This document shows positions 7,934 to 45,293 of a DNA stretch of 64,000 nucleotides, piece by piece. Position 1 is the stretch's first letter. Each line of letters begins with the position of its first letter. The stretch is from the NCBI GenBank assembly GCA_019695185.1, contig JAIBAN010000038.1:1-64000 (forward strand), given 5' to 3'. The position numbers were made by a program, and so were the translations under genes. The notes beneath the pieces are model-generated. The model worked only from the letters and a program-made list of their open reading frames with translations, made no database searches and was not told the origin of the DNA. This DNA comes from Blastocatellia bacterium (lineage in GTDB: Bacteria > Acidobacteriota > Blastocatellia > Chloracidobacteriales > Chloracidobacteriaceae).

Positions 7934-9952
7934 ATGACATTACTGGTCAATCGTTATCTCGTCCTCAAAGAAATGGGAAGCGGTGCGTTTGGTGAGACCT
8001 ATCTGGTCGAAGACACGCATTTGCCGTCCCGACGCAAGTGCATCCTCAAGCGACTCAAGCCCATTGCCCACCATGACACCTACCAGATGATTCTGGAGCG
8101 GTTTCAAATCGAGGCTTCGATTCTGGAACGGCTTGGTGATGAATCGCAGGGGCAGGTGCCGCGTCTGTATGCGTATTTTTCCGAGGACGACAAATTTTAT
8201 CTGGTCCAGGAATGGATAGAGGGGCGCACGCTCAAGGAAATCCTCCGCGACGAAGGACCCTTTAGCGAACAAAAAGTCCGCGAATTGCTCATCGGACTCC
8301 TTCCGGCAGTAGAATACATCCACTCCCAAAACATCATCCACCGCGACATCAAACCCGATAATGTCATGATTCGGGAACGCACGGGCAAGCCGGTCCTGAT
8401 TGATTTCGGGATGGTCAAGGTGGTGCTCAAATCGTCAAGCGGCGAAGATTCGACCAGTTCCGTCATGGCGGGAACTCCGGCCTACATGCCGGTCGAACAG
8501 GTGTTTGGCAAACCGGTGTTTCCAAGCGACCTCTACAGCGTGGGCATGACGATGATTGCGCTCATGACGGGCAAGAATTTGCAGGATATTGCCAAGGTTC
8601 CCGGCAATGTCAAATGGCGTGAACATGCCCCCCAGGTCAGCGAGGAGTTTGCCGGGATTATCAACAAAGCGACGGAACTTTATGTTGAAAACCGCTACCA
8701 GTCGGCCCGCGAAATGCTGGAAGAGGTGAGCCGGACCACCCGGACTGCGGTTCTTCCCGCAGCCGGACCAGCCACACTGGAGGGGATGGACCCGGCGGCA
8801 GTGACCACCCTGCGCCATTTCGAGCTGGATTTGAACGCATTGGCGACGGACCCGACCATTATGGTGCCGCCCACGCAGAAGGTAAAACCGCTTGCTCCTG
8901 TTGATACAACGCAACTGGCCAGCGAACCGACGCTGATTTCGCCGCCCACGCCGCTCCCGGCCCCGCCGCCCCAACTTACCCAACGAATCGAACCGCCAAC
9001 GCAGGCATCCATGCTCAGAATGTCAAACATGGCTGACAAACTGGATGCAGCTTTTTGGGATTCCATCAAGGACACCACCAATCCGCGCAATTTCACGATT
9101 TACCTGTCAAAGTTTCCCAACGGCATTTACCGGGACGAAGCCCGCGCCAAATTTGAATTCCTCGCCAGGGCCACCTTTACGCCCAAGGGGCTGCCAGCGC
9201 TCGATACGGATTCGCCGCAAATCCGCCGCAGCGGGGCGATTCCGGCGGCGGCCCTCAAAAACAGCCTGGGAATGGAATTTGTCATGATCCGGAGCGGCAC
9301 GTTTGTGATGGGGTCGGCGGAAATTGAAACCGAAAAGCCGCCCCATACGGTCAATATCGTGCGGCCTTTTTATCTGAGCAAGTACCCGACCACCCAGGCG
9401 CAGTGGGAAGCCGTCATGGGCGGTAATCCCAGCGAGTTTTTTGGCGACGACCATCCGGTCGAATCGGTTTCCTGGATTAACATTCAGGAATTTTTGAAAC
9501 GACTCAATTCACGGGGTGAAAAATTGTGGTACCGGCTGCCCAGCGAAGCGGAATGGGAATACGCCTGCCGGGCCGGTTCCACGGGACGCTTCTGTTTTGG
9601 CGATGACGAAGCCCATCTGGGCAACTACGCCTGGTTTGACGAAAATTCCGACAACGGGACCAGCCCGGTCGGGCAGAAAGAGCCCAATGTCTGGGGACTC
9701 CATGACATGCACGGCAATGTTTGGGAATGGTGCCAGGACTGGTACCACGAAAGCTATGTTGGCGCTCCGACCGACGGCAGTGCCCGCGAAGACGAGCCGG
9801 AGAAAAAATTCCGTGTCCTGCGGGGTGGTTCCTGGCTCGACGTAGCCCGCTATTGCCGGGCCGCCCGGCGGCTCAACCTGGGGCCGGAAATTGGCATCAG
9901 CGGCGCGGGCTTCCGCGTGGCGGCGGTGCCACGGGAGCGGGGCTTGGTCTAA
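7934..9952 (+). CDS. Ser/Thr protein kinase fused to formylglycine-generating-enzyme-like domain (1)
   Basis: A 672-residue two-domain protein. The N-terminal Hanks kinase (about 5-270) has the G-loop GSGAFGETY, Lys39, HRDIKPDN from 136 and DFG at 157. A Pro/Thr-rich linker (about 275-440) follows. The C-terminal FGE-sulfatase/C-lectin-like domain (about 443-665) starts NSLGMEFVMI and has RLPSEAEWEYACRAG, GLHDMHGNVWEWCQDWY and RVLRGGSW. In true formylglycine-generating enzymes the segment after GGS carries a catalytic Cys; here it reads GGSWLDVARYC, with Asp at that place, so oxidase activity is unlikely and a binding role is inferred. No transmembrane segment is seen, so it is probably cytosolic. 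Confidence 0.9.
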   Translation: MTLLVNRYLVLKEMGSGAFGETYLVEDTHLPSRRKCILKRLKPIAHHDTYQMILERFQIEASILERLGDESQGQVPRLYAYFSEDDKFYLVQEWIEGRTLKEILRDEGPFSEQKVRELLIGLLPAVEYIHSQNIIHRDIKPDNVMIRERTGKPVLIDFGMVKVVLKSSSGEDSTSSVMAGTPAYMPVEQVFGKPVFPSDLYSVGMTMIALMTGKNLQDIAKVPGNVKWREHAPQVSEEFAGIINKATELYVENRYQSAREMLEEVSRTTRTAVLPAAGPATLEGMDPAAVTTLRHFELDLNALATDPTIMVPPTQKVKPLAPVDTTQLASEPTLISPPTPLPAPPPQLTQRIEPPTQASMLRMSNMADKLDAAFWDSIKDTTNPRNFTIYLSKFPNGIYRDEARAKFEFLARATFTPKGLPALDTDSPQIRRSGAIPAAALKNSLGMEFVMIRSGTFVMGSAEIETEKPPHTVNIVRPFYLSKYPTTQAQWEAVMGGNPSEFFGDDHPVESVSWINIQEFLKRLNSRGEKLWYRLPSEAEWEYACRAGSTGRFCFGDDEAHLGNYAWFDENSDNGTSPVGQKEPNVWGLHDMHGNVWEWCQDWYHESYVGAPTDGSAREDEPEKKFRVLRGGSWLDVARYCRAARRLNLGPEIGISGAGFRVAAVPRERGLV

Positions 9953-17102: not shown

Positions 17103-17317
17103 GCAATTTTCTAAGGGCCACTGGCCCCCTCTGCTTTTGCAAGTTTCTGCTTCAATGAACGACCATCGGTCCTCAATCCCGGAGCTTCATTTTTTTCAAG
17201 TTCAGGCTTGAACAAAACACGCACACGGTTCAAATTAGGGCCAAACAAAAAGAAAACAACCCTGCCCCTTCAAACACGCCGCTTCACTCATAAACATTGC
17301 TTCAGGAGTTCACGCAC

Positions 17318-20300
17318 ATGTGGCGCTTGCACCCGACGTTTGTTTGGTTCAGTTTGCTCTGGACCATGTTCAATCTGGTTACCTGGGGAAGGACCCTCTT
17401 TGTGCCGGAGCCTGCTTGCAGGCTGGTGCAGGCTGTTCAGGCAGGAAGCGAAACCCTGCGACAGGAAAGACCGGTAACCCTGCACCTGAAAAGCGGGGAA
17501 TCAAGCACGGTTGCACTGGAGGCTTCGAGTGGCCAATTCCTTCAGGTCGGATGCAGTTCAAAAAATCTGGATGTCGCCCTGAATCTGTATGACCCGGCGG
17601 GAAAATTGCTTTGTACCGTGGATGGTGGGGAAATTGGCGAACCAGAGACAGTTTGGTTTGTGGCTGAAACAAAGGGCACCTTCCGTTTGGAGATTACAGT
17701 CCCACAAAAGGAAGCCGTTACGGGCGAGGTTGAAATCAAGTTGGAAGAGCAACGCGCGGCAGTGCCCTCCGACCAGGACCGTTGCACGGCGCAGAAACTC
17801 TTTAATGCAGGACAGGCTTTACGAAAACAGGGGCTCAAAGAAACTCGGCAGGCAGCAATCACCAAGCTTGAAACTGCACTGACGCTGTTTCGTCAACTGG
17901 AGGACCGGGTTTGGCAAGGTCAAATATTGAATCTGATTGGCGACCTGCTCTATCAACTGGGTGAGCGGAAAAAATCAGTCACTTATTTTGAAGAAGCGCT
18001 GGCACTCAAAACCGCCCTGGGAGACAAAAGAAATCAGGCCATCCTGTGTCAAAATCTGGGAGTGGTTTATGACGGGCTGGGCGACAAGGCCAAAGCCCTG
18101 GAGTATTACAACCGGGCTTTGCTGCTGGCCAGGGAAACTGAAAACCGGGCTGCCGAGCGGACAACCCTTTCCTCACTGGGAACCTATTACAACTCAATTG
18201 GGCAAGGAGCCAAGGCGCTTGAATTCCATCAGCAGGCACTGACTCTGGCCAAGGAACTGGGCAGCACCAAAATGCAGGCTGATTCCCTCAATCGGATTGG
18301 CCGGGTGCTGGATAATCAGGGGGATGTCAAAAAAGCCCTGGAGCATTATATCCGGTCATTGGAGCTGTATCGGGAAGCCGGTGACCTGTCTGGTCAGGGA
18401 ACACTTAACATCAATCTGGGGGCTGCGGTGATGAAGCAGGGCAATTTACCCAAAGCCCGCGAATATTTCACCACCGCGCTGGAGTTGGCGCGGAAAACCG
18501 GGGCGCTCAATTCGCAGGCGACTGCCTTGAACAATCTGGGGGTCAGCTACGCCCTGGCTGGGGAATCTCAAAAAGCACTGGAATATTACCGGCAGGTCTT
18601 ACCGGTTCAGGTGGCACTCGGCGATGTGCGGGAGCAGGCCATAGTGCTCACCAATATCGGTACCATGTTCGACAATCTGAGTAAAAAACAAGAGGCGCTG
18701 GAAACCTTACAACAGGCGCTGGCATTGCGCCGGTCAGTTTCGGACAAGGCCGGTGAAGGAAATACGTTGAGCAATCTCTGCACCTGTTACTTTTCGATAG
18801 GTGACTATCACAAGGCTGACGAGATGTGCCGTCAGGCATTGGCCAAGCGGGAAGAGGCGGGTGACAAGTTTGGTCAGGCACATACGCTTTCCAGCCTGGG
18901 GGTCCTTGCTTCCTCTTTGGACCATGACGAAGAGGCGATTGCCTTTTTCAATCAATCACTGACCCTGCGGGTGGCGTTGGGCGACAAGCCGGGGCAGGCC
19001 ATTACCCTGAGTCATATGGCGAGTTGTCATACCAAAGCCAAAGCCTATCCCAAAGCGTTGGAATTGGCCCGTCAGTCTTTGGATTTATGCGACAAGGTGG
19101 GTGACAAACGAACCCGTGCCTACACACTCAACCTGATGGAGGAAATCCAGATGGGGATGGAGGACTTTGTCCAGGCCAGTGAGACCAACCGCCTGAGCCT
19201 GGCTGCCTGGGAACAGCTTGAGGAACCGGTCGGAAAAGCCGCCAGCCTGTTTCATGGGGCGCAAATCGAAGCCAAATTCAAGCACTTTGAAACCGCACGG
19301 CAAAAAATCGAAGCGTCAATCGCACTCCTGGAGCAAATCCGAACCAGTCTGACCGGTCTGGGAGCGCGGACCACCCATTTTTCTTTGGTCCAGCGTTATT
19401 ACAGGTTTTACGTCCAGTTGTTAATGCGGATGCACCAGGACAATCCAACTGCCGGATATGCCGCCGAAGCCCTCCAAGTCAGCGAAAAGGCTCGTGCGAG
19501 AGGATTGCTTGACTTGCTGACCGAGGCCCAGGCGGACATTCGCTCAGGGGTTGACCCGCACCTGTTGGAGCGTGAGCAGGCTTTGCAACAACTGCTCAAA
19601 GATAAACAGGAACGACTGACCCGGCTGCTGGTGCGGCCCCATACGCCGCAACAGGAACAGGAAGTCAAAAAGGAATTTGATGCGTTGTTGGATGAGTACA
19701 ATCAGGTCAGAGCCCGCATTCGGGCTGTCAGCCCACGATATGCCGCCCTGACGCAGCCGCAGTCGCTGGATGTCAAACGGATTCAGCAGGAGGTACTCGA
19801 CCCTCACACGGTGCTGCTCGAATATGTCCTGGACGAACCTCACAGCTATGTGTGGGTGGTCAGTCAGACGGCTGTTTCGGTGGTCGAGCTTCCCCACCAC
19901 CAGGAAATTGAGGTGCTGGCACTGCAATTGCGGGAATTGCTGACTGCCCGCAACCACTCGAAAAAGAATGAAACCGCCGCAGAAGCAACTGCCCGGATTG
20001 CCAAGGCTGATGAAGTCTATGCCGTCACTGCAAAAAAATTGAGCGAATTGCTCCTGGCCCCGGTGGCCGGTTTCATCAAAGGCCGCCGCTTGCTGGTGGT
20101 GCCTGACGGCCCGTTGCAATTCGTTCCTTTTGCAGCCTTGCCGGAGCCAGGGGGCCCGCATCCCTTGGTGGTCGGGCATGAAATTATCACGTTGCCTTCG
20201 GCTTCCACTCTCGCACTTTTGCGGGAGGAACGGTTATCGGAGACACAGGCAAAACCCAGCATTGCCGTGTTGGCCGACCCGGTTTATCAAAACACTGACG

Positions 20301-21025
20301 AACGCGTCGAGGGGGACCGCAAAACCGCTGTTCCAACGGCGTTGACCAATCCTTTCAGCCAGCAGATACGAACCCGCCTGCTCGAACGCGAGGAGGAATC
20401 CGCTGCCACGGGGACCACAGAACAGGTGGTGAAACGGAGGTTGTTGATAGGCCGCCTGCCGTTTACCAAAGTGGAAGCCGACGCCATTTTCAAACTGGGT
20501 GCCACCTCGACTTCACTCAAAGCCGAAGGGTTTGATGCTTCACGGGAAACCGTGTTCAAGACGGACTTTTCCCGGTTTTCCTATCTTCATTTTGCCACCC
20601 ACGGGTATGTGGACGGTGAACGCCCCGAACTTTCGGCCCTGGTCCTCTCCATGGTGGACCGGCAGGGGCAGGGGCAGGACGGATTCCTGCGCATGACCGA
20701 CATCTATAACCTCAATATTCCAGCGGAACTGGTGGTCTTGTCGGCCTGTGAAACCGGTCTGGGGAAGGATGTCAAAGGCGAAGGACTGGTGGGTTTGACC
20801 CGTGGTTTTATGTATGCGGGAGCGCGGCGGGTCGTCGTCAGTTTATGGAGTGTCAATGACCGGGCGACAGCCGCCCTGATGACCAGATTTTATCAGAAAA
20901 TGCTGTCCGGCAAGCTGCGTCCGGCAGCAGCGCTCCGGGCTGCCCAAGTCGAAATGATACGCCAGACCCAATGGAAATCGCCTTTTTACTGGGGGGCGTT
21001 TGTCCTCCAGGGGGATTACCGATAG
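17318..21025 (+). CDS. TPR-CHAT protease-like protein (1)
   Basis: 1235 residues. After a hydrophobic N-terminus (about 1-30, possible signal or anchor) comes a beta-sandwich part resembling pre-peptidase C-terminal domains (VTLHLKSGESSTVALEASSGQFLQV, LNLYDPAGKLL). Then come about 13 tetratricopeptide repeats (about 160-700, unit LGDKxxQAxxLxNLGxxYxxLGDxxKALEYYxxAL), a coiled region and a C-terminal CHAT caspase-like domain. Its catalytic pair is present: His1095 in HFATHG and Cys1144 in SACETG. ATG 17318 has AGGAG 10 bases upstream. TPRs probably receive a signal or partner that controls proteolysis; substrate unknown. It is convergent with a second TPR-CHAT gene 96 bp away. Confidence 0.9.
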   Translation: MWRLHPTFVWFSLLWTMFNLVTWGRTLFVPEPACRLVQAVQAGSETLRQERPVTLHLKSGESSTVALEASSGQFLQVGCSSKNLDVALNLYDPAGKLLCTVDGGEIGEPETVWFVAETKGTFRLEITVPQKEAVTGEVEIKLEEQRAAVPSDQDRCTAQKLFNAGQALRKQGLKETRQAAITKLETALTLFRQLEDRVWQGQILNLIGDLLYQLGERKKSVTYFEEALALKTALGDKRNQAILCQNLGVVYDGLGDKAKALEYYNRALLLARETENRAAERTTLSSLGTYYNSIGQGAKALEFHQQALTLAKELGSTKMQADSLNRIGRVLDNQGDVKKALEHYIRSLELYREAGDLSGQGTLNINLGAAVMKQGNLPKAREYFTTALELARKTGALNSQATALNNLGVSYALAGESQKALEYYRQVLPVQVALGDVREQAIVLTNIGTMFDNLSKKQEALETLQQALALRRSVSDKAGEGNTLSNLCTCYFSIGDYHKADEMCRQALAKREEAGDKFGQAHTLSSLGVLASSLDHDEEAIAFFNQSLTLRVALGDKPGQAITLSHMASCHTKAKAYPKALELARQSLDLCDKVGDKRTRAYTLNLMEEIQMGMEDFVQASETNRLSLAAWEQLEEPVGKAASLFHGAQIEAKFKHFETARQKIEASIALLEQIRTSLTGLGARTTHFSLVQRYYRFYVQLLMRMHQDNPTAGYAAEALQVSEKARARGLLDLLTEAQADIRSGVDPHLLEREQALQQLLKDKQERLTRLLVRPHTPQQEQEVKKEFDALLDEYNQVRARIRAVSPRYAALTQPQSLDVKRIQQEVLDPHTVLLEYVLDEPHSYVWVVSQTAVSVVELPHHQEIEVLALQLRELLTARNHSKKNETAAEATARIAKADEVYAVTAKKLSELLLAPVAGFIKGRRLLVVPDGPLQFVPFAALPEPGGPHPLVVGHEIITLPSASTLALLREERLSETQAKPSIAVLADPVYQNTDERVEGDRKTAVPTALTNPFSQQIRTRLLEREEESAATGTTEQVVKRRLLIGRLPFTKVEADAIFKLGATSTSLKAEGFDASRETVFKTDFSRFSYLHFATHGYVDGERPELSALVLSMVDRQGQGQDGFLRMTDIYNLNIPAELVVLSACETGLGKDVKGEGLVGLTRGFMYAGARRVVVSLWSVNDRATAALMTRFYQKMLSGKLRPAAALRAAQVEMIRQTQWKSPFYWGAFVLQGDYR

Positions 21026-21121
21026 AAAAGGTGCCGAGAAGGCTGGGGGCAACTGTTCGACGTGCGCTCCAGCCTCCAGGCGTACCATCTCACTTCATTC
21101 CACCTGCACTCAGAACGCAGG

Positions 21122-24100
21122 TTACGGTTTTGTTTCCAGCGCACCCCATTGCCCGGACTGAATGAAAGAAGCCCAGAAAAAGGGATGGCTGCGTTTGGGA
21201 TTTTTGAGCATTTTGAGCTGCACGGTCCGCAACGCTTCGGAAAGTCCCGCCCCGGCTTTCACCCGGCTGTAAAACTCGGTCATCAATTCACGGGTGCCGG
21301 TATCGGAAACCGGCCAGAGACTCATCAGTTGGGCCTCACTCCCGGCGAGCACCAGCGCCCGCCGCAGGCCATACACGCCTTCACCGTTTTTGACTTCCCC
21401 AAGCCCTGTGTCACAGGCCGAGAGCACCACCAGTTTCGTGCCCCACAAATTGGTTTCAGCCATTTCCAGAGCCGACATAATCCCACCAGAATCCCGATTT
21501 GAATTGGCAAAAAAGAGATAGGAACGCAGGAGGGGATTTTCCAGTCTGGTTTGCGCCAGATTTACCGACGTGGAATCCTCGCGGACGAGTACCCGTTGCC
21601 CCGCTTCGGCTGCCAGAGAAGGTCTGGTATCCTCAAAAAAGTACCCGTGAGTGGCGATATGGAGCACCTTTGGACTTTCCTTACCAGCCAAAGCCTCTTT
21701 GGTGGCATCCTTTTGTTCCACCACCCTGGCTTGTGGGAAGAGGGCCAGAATTGCGGCGGCTTCCTTTTGGGTTTCGTCTAACCGAGCCAACGGCTTCATC
21801 TGGATGCCACCCAGTTTGGGTCCCTGGCCTTCACCGTAATCCGGGTCTGCCACAATCAATGGTGGTTGGGTCGTGGGAATTTGCGCCTGCAACCGCAGCA
21901 GGTCTCGCCCGCTGGTCAGGTAGGTAAAGGTAAAGCGTTCCACCGCAAACCGGTTTTTTTCGTCCACCAGGGCCGCAAAGGGAACCAGGTTCAACTCTCC
22001 GTCGGGTGCAATCAGCAGGTGACGGCGGGAGCCCGCCAGTTTGCGGACCGGTTCGAGCACCAGTTGGTCAAGCTTGCGCCCCAATCCCTGGAGCCCGGCT
22101 GGTGCATCAATCCGATTTCGCAAAGCCTGCCGAAACAGGGAGGCCAGTTGATTGATTTCCTGGGCTGGGCCAAGGTCCACCCACTGAATCCCAGCCTGGG
22201 AGCCTTGGGGTTTCAACAGCAGATAGGCGGCATACCGGGGTTCACCGAGCTTTCGGGTTTTGGGGTCAACCGGACGATAGGTGGCATATTCGACCAGTGC
22301 TGCACCGGTGGGCACCAGTGCCTGCACGCCTTCCAGCGTAATGGGTGTGGTTTTGGTCTGGAACTCCAGGCTCCGCCGACTGATTTCCCGTTCCAGTTGT
22401 TCCTTTCGTTTTTGCAATTCCTGAATGGCAGCCTGATGTTCCGCCGGATTGAGGTTGCCAGGGCCTTTCAAAACCTGGACCGAGATTTGTTTGCCGACAT
22501 TTTCATATTCGTCCAACAGTTTTTTTGTTTCGGCATCATTGCGTCCCCGGAGGGTGGCCAACACGTTGGTCATGGCATCCAGGGCCCGTCCCTTGCGGCG
22601 TAAAATCACCGTGAGGGCAGCCTGGGCCGCTTTGATGTTGTGCGGTGCCCCTTGCAAGTGAAGGGAAATCGTGTCGTCCGTAAAGAGGGCGGTTTGATTC
22701 AGGTAGAGCGATTTCTGCCGTTCGGAGCCGGAAACCAGATTGCGATTCAGGTCCATTTCGGAGATTTCGTTGCTCCGGATGCGGTCTTCCAGCGCCTGCT
22801 CCACCTGCCCCATTGCCTGATGAGTGGCAGCCAAAAAACTCAGGGAATCAGCAACAGCATGGTGATTGGGACCAAGGACCTGTTCCCGAATCTTCAGGGA
22901 CTCAAGAAACAGGGGCTCGGCTTGTTGGTAATCCTGTTGGGTAAACCGGCAGTTGCCCAGATTAAACAACATTGTGGCCAAATCCTGGTGAATCAAACCA
23001 AAAATCTTTTCGTTGATGGCTTTGGCTTTGAGGATGAATGATGCCGCTTTGGCCGCATCGCCTTTCGCCAGGTAGAAGAGGCCCAGACTATTCAGACTGA
23101 ACGCCACCTGCGGATGGTTGGGTCCAAGGGCTTTTTCCCCTACCTCCAAGGCTCGCAACAGTAAGGGTTCGGCCTGGGCAAAGTCACCTTTGGCCCGGTA
23201 GGCTGAGGCCAGTCCGTTTAGGACTTGTCCCACCTTGTAGTGGTGTGGTCCCAATCGCTTTTCAAAGATACTCAACGCTCGCTGATAGAACGGAATTGCT
23301 TTTTCCACATCCCCCTGTTCTTTGAGGAGGTTCCCCAGGTTCGTCAAGGTGGTCCCCGTGTCCGGGTGGTCCGGTCCCGAGGTTTTTTCGAGAATTGCCA
23401 GTGCCCGCTCCAGGACAAGCTCGCCTTTGGTGTAGTCACCTTTGGCCCGATACACACTGGAAAGATTCATCAGCAGAGTGGCCAGAACAGGCTGGTTGGG
23501 CCCCAGGGCTTTTTCCCGGACGGCCACCGCCCGTTCACCCATGATTTCAGCCTTGGCTAACTCTCCTTTGTCGCGGTAAAGCACCGACAGATTTGTGAGC
23601 GGGGTCGCTACATCCGGATTTTCCGGTCCCAGGACTTTTTCCCGAATGGCAAGGGCCCGCAGATAGAGCGGCTCGGCCAAGGCAAAATTTCCCCGGTCCC
23701 GGTAATGGGCGGCCAGGCTGTTCAAGTTGGGAGTAATCCCAACATTATCCGGGCCAAGTTTCTTTTCCGCCACGGCCAACCCTCTTTGATAGAGAGGCTC
23801 GGCCTTTTGGTAATTGCCCATTGCATGGTAGGCCCCAGCCAGATTGCTGAGACTGGTGCCCACCGCCTGATGGTCGGGGCCCAGCACCTTTTCGTAAATG
23901 GCCAAGGCGCGCTGATGAAAGTCCACCGCCTTTTCCAGTTCGCTTTTGTCCTTGTATAAATTGCCCAGATTATTCAGGACTTGGGCCACGTCCTTACTTT
24001 CCGGGCCTTTGGCTTTTTGGTGAATAGCCAACACCCGCAAAAAAGTCTGTTCGGCGGCCAGATATTCTCCGCGCCATTGCAACAGAATGGCAAAGTTCCC

Positions 24101-25207
24101 AAGTGCGATGGCCAAATTGGGATGTTCCGGCCCCAGCTTTTTTTCCTGAATGGCAATCGAACGTCGGAACATCGGTTCAGCCAGGTCATACTTTCCGGTT
24201 GTCAGATAAAGCGCGGCGAGTCCATTCAGGCTGTCCCCGGTAATCTCGTTTTCGGGCCCAAAAACTTTTTCATTGATTTGCAGGGATTTCTGCAAGAGCG
24301 GTTCCACCTTGGCATATTGGTTTTTGGACCAATACAGTCCAGCCAGATTATTGTAGGCACGGGCCAGATTGGGGTGGTCCGGTTCCAGGAGTTTTTCCCG
24401 CAATGCCAAAACCTGCTGCAACTGGGTTTCGGCCTGTTCAAATTTGCCCAGGTTCAGGTAAACGGTGCCCAAGGTTTCAAGCGGGTCACCTCTTTCGACC
24501 GGTTTGACCTCCTTCAGTTTCTCCTGGATTCCCAGTGCCCGCACCGTAACTGCTTCAGCTTTGGCAAAATCACCCTTGCTGTAGCAGGTCAAGCCCATCT
24601 GATACAGGGACTTAAAAACTAAAACGTGCTCCGGGCCGAAGGTTTTCTCACTCTTTGCCAGCGCGGATTCAGCCGCCGCCAAAGATTTGTCATAGATTCC
24701 GTCAGCCCAGAATTTTTGGGATTCAAAAATCAGGTGCCAGACTTCCAGTTCGACTTCATCGGCTGGTGTGGCCGGATGAAGTTTTTTGATTTCCAGGCTG
24801 AACTTCCCGGCAGGGGCCTCTTTTTGGACTGCCGTCACGACCATCTGGTAGTGTCCCGGCTGCTCGCACATCAGAAAAATGTCTTCAGAATCGTAGAGGC
24901 CAATTCCCCGGTTGGCTTCCGCCAGGGTTTTCCCGTCCGGTCCCACCAGCCGCAGCATCACGTCAATCCTCTGGGGGGAAACCCTGGCAATGAAAAGGCT
25001 GCGTGATTTGAGGTGAAAGTGAAAGGTGCGGCTCTCATTCCCTTTGAGTTCACTGGTTTCCTGGCTTCCTTCCACCACATTGGAGGCAGGTGCTGGTTGT
25101 CCTTGAAACGGGCTGGAACCAGCCCAAACCGGAAAAAAGCCGGTAAGGATGCACAGGAACAGGCCAATCGTAAAACACACGCCTGGGCGTTTGAGGGAGG
25201 ATTGCAT
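21122..25207 (-). CDS. TPR-CHAT protease-like protein (2), kinesin-light-chain-type TPRs
   Basis: 1361 residues with a signal peptide (about 1-35, FTIGLFLCILTGFFPVWA). A pre-peptidase-like beta domain (about 50-140, RTFHFHLKSRSLFIARVSPQRIDVMLRL) precedes about 17 TPRs of 42 residues with the kinesin-light-chain unit ALAIREKVLGPEHPDVAxxLNNLAxLY. A linker follows, then a CHAT domain with His1187 (HIATHG) and Cys1265 (SACDTG). The start at 25207 has GGAG 7 bases upstream. It is not a simple paralogue of the neighbour: TPR type and linker differ, and only the CHAT end is close. A predicted periplasmic or surface location is unusual for a caspase-like protease. Confidence 0.9.
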   Translation of the reverse strand: MQSSLKRPGVCFTIGLFLCILTGFFPVWAGSSPFQGQPAPASNVVEGSQETSELKGNESRTFHFHLKSRSLFIARVSPQRIDVMLRLVGPDGKTLAEANRGIGLYDSEDIFLMCEQPGHYQMVVTAVQKEAPAGKFSLEIKKLHPATPADEVELEVWHLIFESQKFWADGIYDKSLAAAESALAKSEKTFGPEHVLVFKSLYQMGLTCYSKGDFAKAEAVTVRALGIQEKLKEVKPVERGDPLETLGTVYLNLGKFEQAETQLQQVLALREKLLEPDHPNLARAYNNLAGLYWSKNQYAKVEPLLQKSLQINEKVFGPENEITGDSLNGLAALYLTTGKYDLAEPMFRRSIAIQEKKLGPEHPNLAIALGNFAILLQWRGEYLAAEQTFLRVLAIHQKAKGPESKDVAQVLNNLGNLYKDKSELEKAVDFHQRALAIYEKVLGPDHQAVGTSLSNLAGAYHAMGNYQKAEPLYQRGLAVAEKKLGPDNVGITPNLNSLAAHYRDRGNFALAEPLYLRALAIREKVLGPENPDVATPLTNLSVLYRDKGELAKAEIMGERAVAVREKALGPNQPVLATLLMNLSSVYRAKGDYTKGELVLERALAILEKTSGPDHPDTGTTLTNLGNLLKEQGDVEKAIPFYQRALSIFEKRLGPHHYKVGQVLNGLASAYRAKGDFAQAEPLLLRALEVGEKALGPNHPQVAFSLNSLGLFYLAKGDAAKAASFILKAKAINEKIFGLIHQDLATMLFNLGNCRFTQQDYQQAEPLFLESLKIREQVLGPNHHAVADSLSFLAATHQAMGQVEQALEDRIRSNEISEMDLNRNLVSGSERQKSLYLNQTALFTDDTISLHLQGAPHNIKAAQAALTVILRRKGRALDAMTNVLATLRGRNDAETKKLLDEYENVGKQISVQVLKGPGNLNPAEHQAAIQELQKRKEQLEREISRRSLEFQTKTTPITLEGVQALVPTGAALVEYATYRPVDPKTRKLGEPRYAAYLLLKPQGSQAGIQWVDLGPAQEINQLASLFRQALRNRIDAPAGLQGLGRKLDQLVLEPVRKLAGSRRHLLIAPDGELNLVPFAALVDEKNRFAVERFTFTYLTSGRDLLRLQAQIPTTQPPLIVADPDYGEGQGPKLGGIQMKPLARLDETQKEAAAILALFPQARVVEQKDATKEALAGKESPKVLHIATHGYFFEDTRPSLAAEAGQRVLVREDSTSVNLAQTRLENPLLRSYLFFANSNRDSGGIMSALEMAETNLWGTKLVVLSACDTGLGEVKNGEGVYGLRRALVLAGSEAQLMSLWPVSDTGTRELMTEFYSRVKAGAGLSEALRTVQLKMLKNPKRSHPFFWASFIQSGQWGALETKP

Positions 25208-25379
25208 ACGTGTCTCCGGGGGAAAGCCCACAGCCGGGAAGGTTTTGGACTGTACAACTGAAAAGCAGGAATAAATGAGGCAGGAAGGCTTAACTGTACA
25301 ATGCCGCCATTCAGCGGCACAACCAGAAAAAGAGTTCCCCAGGTTTCAGGTTTCAAATTTGAAGCCCCGTGTCATGACC
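25208..25379. other. Intergenic region upstream of TPR-CHAT 2
   Basis: The left part is the leader of the minus-strand CHAT gene. A small perfect hairpin TGCCGC CATTCA GCGGCA sits near 25301-25318. Nothing else is recognisable. Confidence 0.4.
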
Positions 25380-25626: not shown

Positions 25627-27366
25627 ATGCTCACAAGCGAAACCATGTTGGAAAAACGCTACCGGATTGTGCGCAAAGTCGCGTCCGGAGGGATGGGGCA
25701 TATTTACGAAGCCATTGACACGCGACTGGGGAATGTACCCGTAGCTGTCAAACAGTTGAAACCCGAACTGGCTAGTGAGCCGAGCTTGCTCACGGCTTTT
25801 GAGCGTGAAGCGACGGTACTGGCTCGGCTGAAACATCCGGCGCTGCCGCACGTGAAAGACTATTTTCCGGGAACGAACGGCTATTTTCTGGTGATGGAGT
25901 GGATTACCGGCCCAACTTTGAGCGAACGCCAGCAGCACGGCGGAGCGGTTCCGCTTGCCACGGTGCAGGCTTGGGGGACGCAACTCTTGCAGGTGGTGGC
26001 GTTTCTTCATTCCCAGCCGCCGCCGATTATCCATCGTGACATCAAACCCGCCAATATCAAGGTGAATGACCAGGGAACGCTCTTTCTGCTTGATTTTGGG
26101 ATAGCCAAAGAGCTTCGGAATACGGTCAACACGCTGGTTTTCACGCCGGACGGAGCGACGCCGTACACCGCTTTTGAATTGATTGGGGACCACGCCGGAG
26201 AGGTTGACACCTGTTGCGATGTGTATTCGGCGGGAGCGGTGCTGTACCGAATGTTGACGAATCAGCCACCAGTCAAACCGCTTGAACGGGTCACGGCCCG
26301 CGCCTTGGGCAAGGCTGACCCGCTTCGACCAGTTGAGGAATTGAATCCAAAAGTTTCCCCTGAATTGGCTTCGGTTATTTGGAAAATGTTGGCAGTTTTC
26401 CCCCATGACCGGTATGCACGGATTGAAGCCGCGCTGCAAGGCTGGCAGGAAGCGTTTGAAACAACCGTGGTGCGTCCAACTCCTCTGGCAAACTCATCGC
26501 TTGCGCCGCCTGCGCCAGTCAAAACTCCCAACCGGATTGAGATTTCCGTGGCAAAACCAGTGCCTCCGCCGGTTGTCATTGCTCCTCCTCCGGCACGCAT
26601 CATCCAACCGCCGCCGAAACCAGTCGAACCGAGGGTATTCAAAAACAGTTTGGGAATGGAATTTGTGCTAATTCCAATAGGGCCTTTTCAAATGGGGTCG
26701 AGTGAAAAAGATGTACAGAGAGCCTTTCAAACTGCCAGATCAGTCAATGAGAGAGTCCTGGAGTTATGGTTTAGAGCCGAGACACCAAGGCATGAGGTGT
26801 TAATCAGCCGGGCGTATTACCTGGGGAAGTATTTAGTGACGCAACGCGAGTGGCAAGCGGTAATGGGAACGAATCCGAGCTTTTTCAAAGACGACGACCT
26901 ACCGGTGGAACAGGTTTCGTGGAATGACTGCCAGGAGTTCATTGCGAAACTCAATGCGCGTCAGGATGGTTCCCAATACCGATTACCCAGTGAGGCGGAA
27001 TGGGAATATGCCTGTCGAGCCGGAACGACGGGGGATTACGCCGGGGAGTTGGAGAAGCTGGGCTGGTACTGGGAAAATTCAGGAATAAAAACGCACCCAG
27101 TGGGAAAAAAAGACCCAAACAATTGGGGGTTGTACGACATGCACGGGAATGTGTCGGAATGGTGTCAGGATTGGTACGACCAAAGTTACTACCGAAGCAG
27201 CCCCGGCATGGATCCGCTTGGACCGCAAGCAGGCACGTACCGGGTTATCCGGGGCGGCGGTTGGCGCACCCGGGCCGTGTACTGCCGGTCGGCGCTCCGC
27301 CTCTGGCACCCACCCGTCAACCGCTACCACGCCCTCGGTTTCCGCCTTGTGAGGACGGCTTTGTAA
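25627..27366 (+). CDS. Ser/Thr protein kinase fused to FGE/C-lectin-like domain (2)
   Basis: 579 residues. The kinase (about 8-275) has G-loop ASGGMGHIY, Lys42, HRDIKPAN from 136, DFG at 156 and a TPYTAFEL activation segment. A Pro-rich linker (about 280-335, PPPVVIAPPPARIIQPPP) follows. The C-terminal FGE-like domain (about 339-579) has NSLGMEFVLIPIG, RLPSEAEWEYACRAG, GLYDMHGNVSEWCQDWY and RVIRGGGW. The catalytic Cys expected shortly after GGS is absent (GGGWRTRAVYC), so a ligand-binding role is likely. The last 33 codons match the layout of retroelement-diversified C-lectin tails (separate entry). GAGGGAG precedes the ATG. It is related to the kinase at 7934 but diverged. Confidence 0.9.
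   Translation: MLTSETMLEKRYRIVRKVASGGMGHIYEAIDTRLGNVPVAVKQLKPELASEPSLLTAFEREATVLARLKHPALPHVKDYFPGTNGYFLVMEWITGPTLSERQQHGGAVPLATVQAWGTQLLQVVAFLHSQPPPIIHRDIKPANIKVNDQGTLFLLDFGIAKELRNTVNTLVFTPDGATPYTAFELIGDHAGEVDTCCDVYSAGAVLYRMLTNQPPVKPLERVTARALGKADPLRPVEELNPKVSPELASVIWKMLAVFPHDRYARIEAALQGWQEAFETTVVRPTPLANSSLAPPAPVKTPNRIEISVAKPVPPPVVIAPPPARIIQPPPKPVEPRVFKNSLGMEFVLIPIGPFQMGSSEKDVQRAFQTARSVNERVLELWFRAETPRHEVLISRAYYLGKYLVTQREWQAVMGTNPSFFKDDDLPVEQVSWNDCQEFIAKLNARQDGSQYRLPSEAEWEYACRAGTTGDYAGELEKLGWYWENSGIKTHPVGKKDPNNWGLYDMHGNVSEWCQDWYDQSYYRSSPGMDPLGPQAGTYRVIRGGGWRTRAVYCRSALRLWHPPVNRYHALGFRLVRTAL
27262..27357 (+). other. Candidate diversity-generating-retroelement variable region
   Basis: The codons after RVIRGGGW follow the variable-region layout of C-lectin-type DGR targets: a CRSA core, an R-x4-P spacing and a final GFRLVR. 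Between codons 547 and 570, thirteen residues at positions that vary in such tails (R547, T548, A550, Y552, L557, L559, H561, V564, N565, Y567, H568, A569, L570) all use codons ending in C. That is what adenine mutagenesis of AAC template codons produces. No template repeat or reverse transcriptase is in the window. Confidence 0.5.
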
Positions 27367-27890
27367 CGCTTTGCCTTTTACTCTTGGGGTTTGGGGAAAA
27401 CCAGTGCGCAGCGAAAATGGAGCCGGGAGCGAGGCGAAGCACAGCCGCCCGCGACCAGGCGGAATGAAAGCAGGCGCACTGGCGGCGGGGCCAAAATGTT
27501 CCGTGAGCGGAGCGAGCGGATCTAATCGCGCATTCCTCCGGAATGCTTGGCGCTCCTGCCGGAGTGCAGGCGGATTAGGGCACCCCATTCCAGGGGTTTC
27601 GCTTTGGCTTCACAACCCTGGCTACCAGAACCCGCTCCTGCCGGAGTAGAAGACTCCCGCAGGCGGTACTGACAGGTTCTCGCAGCCCAAACTGAGAATT
27701 GCTGCATGATCGCGCTCCAGTCCATATTTTTTAGAAGCGCAGAAACCCGCACCCTGTGCGCAAAAATCTCCAGTCTGAGTTTCGATTTGTGCAGATTTTC
27801 TTGATTTCAGGCTTTGGCGGGCGTGGCACATCGGTTGCAGTGAAAGAGATACGTTGGTGAGTTTCGGCTTCGAAAGGAGGAACTCCCTGT
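27367..27890. other. Intergenic region with inverted dispersed repeats
   Basis: There is no supported gene in 524 bp. It contains GAGCGGAGCGAGCGG-type and CTCCTGCCGGAGT palindromic blocks, a copy (about 27580-27625, inverted) of the repeat at about 7651-7695, and a second copy of the GGTACTGAC...AACTGAGAATTGCTG repeat at 27664-27705. The promoter and leader of the next gene lie in the last 150 bp, with a GGAGG site at about 27878. Confidence 0.55.
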
Positions 27891-45137: not shown

Positions 45138-45293
45138 GAATTGAGAAGTTCGAATTGAGAATGGAGAATGGAGAATTGATTGGGAATTGAAAACTCATGA
45201 GGACGGGGATTCAGAAGCCATCATTCTCCCCACTCCTGCAATTCCCAATTCTCAATTCCCAATTCTCAATTCTCAATTCTCAATTCTCAATTG
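45138..45293. repeat. Heptad-arm inverted element H (GAATTGA/CAATTCT)
   Basis: The left arm (45138-45190) is GAATTGA and GAATGGA heptads. The right arm (45238-45293) is CAATTCT/CAATTCC heptads. The core is about 47 bp. It lies between two genes of one cluster on the same strand, so it would be part of their mRNA. Confidence 0.88.

Follow-up and report, generated by a model that had tools for sequence, protein, structure and literature searches.

A kinase-FGE gene of an acidobacterial lineage as a very probable remote target of a diversity-generating retroelement

Remote Ser/Thr kinase targets of diversity-generating retroelements (DGRs), in which the kinase is joined to a C-type-lectin-like (CLec) domain, have been described in cyanobacteria, and control of the kinase by the CLec domain was proposed for them (Vallota-Eastman et al., 2020, PMC7517822). 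The gene that we report shares with these targets an N-terminal kinase and a C-terminal CLec/FGE domain with a variable repeat (VR) at the 3′ end, and shares with the cyanobacterial DGRs the dispersal of remote targets in the genome; orthocaspase targets are found there too. Unlike them, it belongs to an acidobacterial lineage and is a remote target without a visible donor, as both the reverse transcriptase (RT) and the template repeat (TR) are absent from the assembly. The clade 5 DGRs of Thiohalocapsa PB-PSB1 also have CLec/FGE VR targets combined with signalling modules (Pkinase, TIR, CHAT and NACHT), and several of their loci are incomplete or remote, some of which were explained by trans activity (Dore et al., 2024, PMC10907252). 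For several targets there, however, the genome itself also contains RT and TR copies, and natural populations showed diversification. DGR-linked FGS (FGE) domains also occur in VMAP/MoxR-vWA ternary conflict systems (Kaur et al., 2020, PMC7159879); a second VR of our genome (VR2) lies in a VMAP-C/bpMoxR/caspase operon, while the kinase gene, unlike those systems, stands alone, outside any VMAP/bpMoxR operon. The closest solved relative of its FGE domain, and the best PDB match (E=2e-35), is the Treponema denticola variable protein 1, TvpA (PDB 2y3c), a DGR variable protein that differs in having a single domain and no kinase (PMC6328139). Cyanobacteria are already known to have remote kinase-CLec targets, and Thiohalocapsa to have kinase targets; what is new is another lineage.

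We analysed a stretch of 64,000 nucleotides (the window) on contig C185 of a genome of 8.33 Mb in 222 contigs, rated 99.7% complete. The initial annotation had pointed to the 3′ end of one of its genes as a possible DGR target. The following features are needed here, the last of them from another contig of the same genome:

25627-27366, forward strand: Ser/Thr protein kinase with C-terminal FGE domain, classed as the DGR target gene (open reading frame of 579 amino acids; Pfam).
27241-27356, forward strand: first variable repeat (VR1), codons 539 to about 577 (near-copy in the genome and differences at TR adenines).
27334-27353, forward strand: conserved 3′ end of VR1, CTCGGTTTCCGCCTTGTGAG, a putative IMH-like region (common to the TR of a related genome, G156).
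27412-27518, forward strand: non-coding segment of unknown role, also found 3′ of VR2 at C35:41655-41767 (77% over ~107 nt; own-genome search and alignment).
C35:41481-41603: VR2, at the end of a SAV_2336/SLOG-FGE gene (own-genome search).

Pfam placed the kinase at residues 12-266 (PF00069, E=1.7e-37) and the FGE/C-type-lectin domain at residues 345-576 (PF03781, FGE-sulfatase, E=4.7e-43), with a proline-rich linker between them. An AlphaFold model of the FGE domain, computed with five sequences, was poor (pLDDT 57), and the FGE fold was assigned from sequence alone. Two large TPR-CHAT proteins, one per strand, are encoded directly upstream of the kinase gene, at 17297-25231. VR1 makes up the last 41 codons of the gene, a terminal position which by sequence lies within the FGE/CLec fold. 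Its tail has the layout given in the initial annotation, with RVIRGGGW (residues 539-546, 27241-27264) followed by CRSA, an R and a P, and GFRLVR. At its 3′ end it matches the G156 TR as far as GTGAG, beyond which the TR diverges; the segment at 27334-27353 is, by analogy, likely an IMH-like region where VR/TR identity stops.

A search of the whole assembly with positions 27200-27380 as the query returned a single other match, at C35:41471-41619, 81% identical. The gene that ends in this second copy encodes a SAV_2336-type domain and a SLOG-like domain, then FGE. It is the last gene of a VMAP-type conflict operon (L158:223-9604) that also encodes a caspase, a hydrolase, VMAP-C and a bpMoxR AAA protein, and VR2 lies ~164 nt from the end of the contig. 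VR1 and VR2 encode different residues at 11 positions, which all fall between 547 and 569, the variable codons of VR1 being 547, 548, 552, 557, 559, 561, 562, 564, 565, 567 and 569; silent differences are found at codons 541, 542, 550, 574 and 578. The thirteen variable NNC positions initially counted were roughly right, as 10 of the 11 differing codons end in C in both copies. A hairpin was also sought in the segment common to the regions downstream of the two VRs, with no convincing shared structure found.

As the genome's own TR is absent from the assembly, we used TRs of other species as independent predictors of where the two copies should differ. When the G156 TR was the predictor, VR1 and VR2 were mismatched at 16 of 24 adenines and at 5 of 75 positions with another base (P=8e-9), and with the TR of G007, a genome of the same family, at 17 of 28 adenines and 4 of 71 others (P=1e-8). 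The bias was stable across three choices of the interval compared, and the same adenine bias was seen in VR pairs within each of four related genomes (G003, G022, G033 and G037). In the core of the VRs just one or two differences cannot be derived from template adenines, to be compared with 0-3 per ~125 nt in cis VR/TR pairs of relatives.

We consider it very probable that the kinase gene ends in the VR of a DGR, rewritten from an adenine-rich TR. Beyond the layout of the tail, comparison supports this reading through the second VR, the frozen third bases, the adenines of foreign TRs and the complete DGRs of relatives. A DGR RT would copy the TR into cDNA, misreading adenines, and the mutated cDNA would replace the VR of the kinase gene, with almost all changes at bases 1 and 2 of AAC-type codons for the C-type-lectin-like FGE domain. 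Such AAC template codons turn into NNC, which allows 15 residues and no stop codon (PMC8144416, PMC6328139). One template type would have served two targets, the kinase of the window and the sensor of the VMAP/MoxR/caspase operon on C35. By analogy with the cyanobacterial kinase-CLec targets, the FGE domain is most likely a ligand sensor, which would bind a ligand and thereby control the attached kinase. The location of the second target in a caspase/VMAP-C/bpMoxR operon would fit the kind of conflict or self/non-self function for which Kaur et al. (PMC7159879) and Dore et al. (PMC10907252) have argued.

Complete DGRs were found in relatives of the same family (G007), the same order (G013) and the same class. 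Canonical DGR RTs (LPIGNLTSQ, Y[VM]DD) with a nearby TR and VR are present in G007, G013, G156, G037, G026, G030 and G155, and a DGR RT was detected in G161 too. In these complete systems 84-100% of the TR/VR mismatches are at TR adenines, and in cis DGRs the RT starts roughly 340-1250 nt 3′ of the VR. A TR of the window's sequence type (TGCCGGTCGGCG ... CTCGGTTTCCGCCTTGTGAG) is located on contig C825 of G156, where the RT and an HRDC-domain accessory gene lie between TR and VR. Compared with its TR, the VR of that locus (L142:5128-5259) lacks one base, and the reading frame of its tail is shifted as a result. The DGR targets of G156 and G007 have caspase domains, and targets of relatives with the same VR type as the window have kinase, TIR or SEFIR domains. 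The lineage added here, in which related records are labelled Acidobacteria, would be one where a single DGR sequence type rewrote the sensor ends of kinases and of TIR, SEFIR, caspase and VMAP-type conflict proteins. A T-rich tract similar to CTTTTACCCTCTTACCC follows the stop codon of most same-type VRs in relatives (L055, L056, L058, L060, L064-L066); no further tract of this kind turned up in the rest of the window. A pattern scan of genome contigs for the VR type gave matches in only two MAGs. Among the viral contigs listed as matches, the best 80 DGR-like RTs were just 34-41% identical, and so nothing pointed to a closely related viral origin.

The RT and template reported missing from the window are indeed missing, and this holds for a DGR-type RT and a TR across the whole assembly. 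RVT_1 and DGR-RT profile searches of the assembly found no DGR-type RT (LPIGNLTSQ, YxDD), and queries with the VR or a foreign TR found no TR, that is, no further near-copy in the 222 contigs, an assembly that has gaps. Since there is no DGR-type RT in its own assembly, the window gene is classed as a DGR target and not as a complete DGR. The RTs of the genome are all of other kinds, namely a type XIII retron (C62), an RT-Cas1-Cas2 (C195), a UG36 (C203) and a group II fragment (C95), where the assignments on C195 and C95 are readings of translations. The retron RT (L001:120-1706; PADLOC RT_XIII, 631 bits) has similar proteins in G003, G013 and G033; the RT-Cas1-Cas2 contig (L002) is 3 kb long, and the UG36 (DRT) RT is at L005:604-2328. 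The retron RT was considered as the mutator and rejected, as it carries the QGAPTSP retron motif and VRs occur in G022 without such an RT.

VR1 would thus be a remote target; its RT/TR locus either escaped assembly or has been lost recently. The initial annotation had proposed a search for a near-copy with mismatches at adenines next to an RT gene, and had named the absence of RT and template from the genome, together with conservation of the variable residues in orthologues, as grounds against a DGR. The one near-copy, on C35, is a second VR, with no RT or TR beside it in the assembly; no RT or TR was found elsewhere in the assembly either, but the residues are not conserved in related copies. 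Most likely the RT/TR locus fell into an assembly gap, plausibly just 3′ of the VR on C35, or was recently lost. A gap at that place is plausible because VR2 ends so close to the contig break, while the RTs of relatives start at the distances given above. A pure assembly-gap account is awkward, since four relatives have VRs of the window's type and no DGR RT by the DGR-RT profile (G003, G022 and G033, well assembled, and G159, partial); in G022 and G003 most VRs lie deep inside contigs. The recurrence of genomes with several clean VRs and without a DGR RT is a concrete puzzle.

A variant within the DGR reading, with a confidence that overlaps that of the main one, is that the kinase gene is a fossil target, whose RT and TR were lost and whose VRs now evolve normally. 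We regard this as possible, but tentatively so. It would account for the lack of a DGR RT and TR in an assembly rated so nearly complete and for the equally RT-less state of the four relatives, and the few silent differences between VR1 and VR2 are in line with it. On the other hand, VR2 is close to a contig break, and the one or two non-adenine differences in the VR core are akin to those of the relatives' cis systems, so that any loss of RT and TR must be recent. Alternatively, the RT-less state may be real and common in the class, with resident sensors (kinase, TIR, SEFIR and SLOG/VMAP) diversified in trans by an RT/TR that is carried intermittently on a mobile or minority element, a proposal that we find unlikely. 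With two copies and a foreign TR, a remote DGR target could be recognised here although its RT and template are missing, and surveys that start from the RT miss such targets.

An explanation without any DGR would be that two FGE paralogues underwent gene conversion and that the binding surface then came under diversifying selection. The similarity of VR1 and VR2 runs ~160 nt beyond the stop codon, as a longer conversion tract could yield, but the VR core is more similar than its flanks. The divergence by codon position also speaks against it. Upstream of the VR, the FGE coding regions of the two genes are identical at 80, 76 and 49% of codon positions 1, 2 and 3, the usual order, whereas inside the VR the figures are 76, 80 and 85%. 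Third-position identity in the VR core reaches 93%, compared with 34±9% (maximum 56%) in 77 other FGE paralogue pairs of the same genome. The VR pair is the reverse of ordinary divergence, with positions 1 and 2 changed and the third base frozen. Selection at the protein level alone, acting on point mutations, would not freeze base 3 while altering bases 1 and 2; nor would it put the changes on the adenines of other species' TRs. Gene conversion with selection is strongly disfavoured, and we hold it to be very improbable.

The DGR reading also agrees with the codon composition of the tail. Of the 24 codons in 547-570, 17 end in C, an excess well above chance expectation given 22% for the remaining codons of the gene (binomial P=6e-7) and a maximum of 11 in its other 24-codon stretches. 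The related kinase gene serves as an internal control:

7934-9952, forward strand: related kinase-FGE gene, not a DGR target of the window's VR type (no VR match; Pfam).

The contrast that had been drawn with this gene holds, as its tail has no VR near-copy and 13 of 24 C-ending codons, compared with 17 and 16 of 24 in the two VRs, and its tail codons resemble those of the genome's other FGE paralogues. A high proportion of C at third positions is by itself merely a codon-usage signal, as the control gene illustrates, but that ordinary codon usage in a catalytically inert FGE domain produced the DGR look by coincidence has next to no probability, given the difference from the rest of the same gene, and it is refuted by the VR pair, a near-copy with the DGR pattern of differences. 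Elsewhere in the window, the N-terminal part of an open reading frame contains a tandem repeat with a 7-base unit (CAATTCT, 7.7 copies, 45239-45292).
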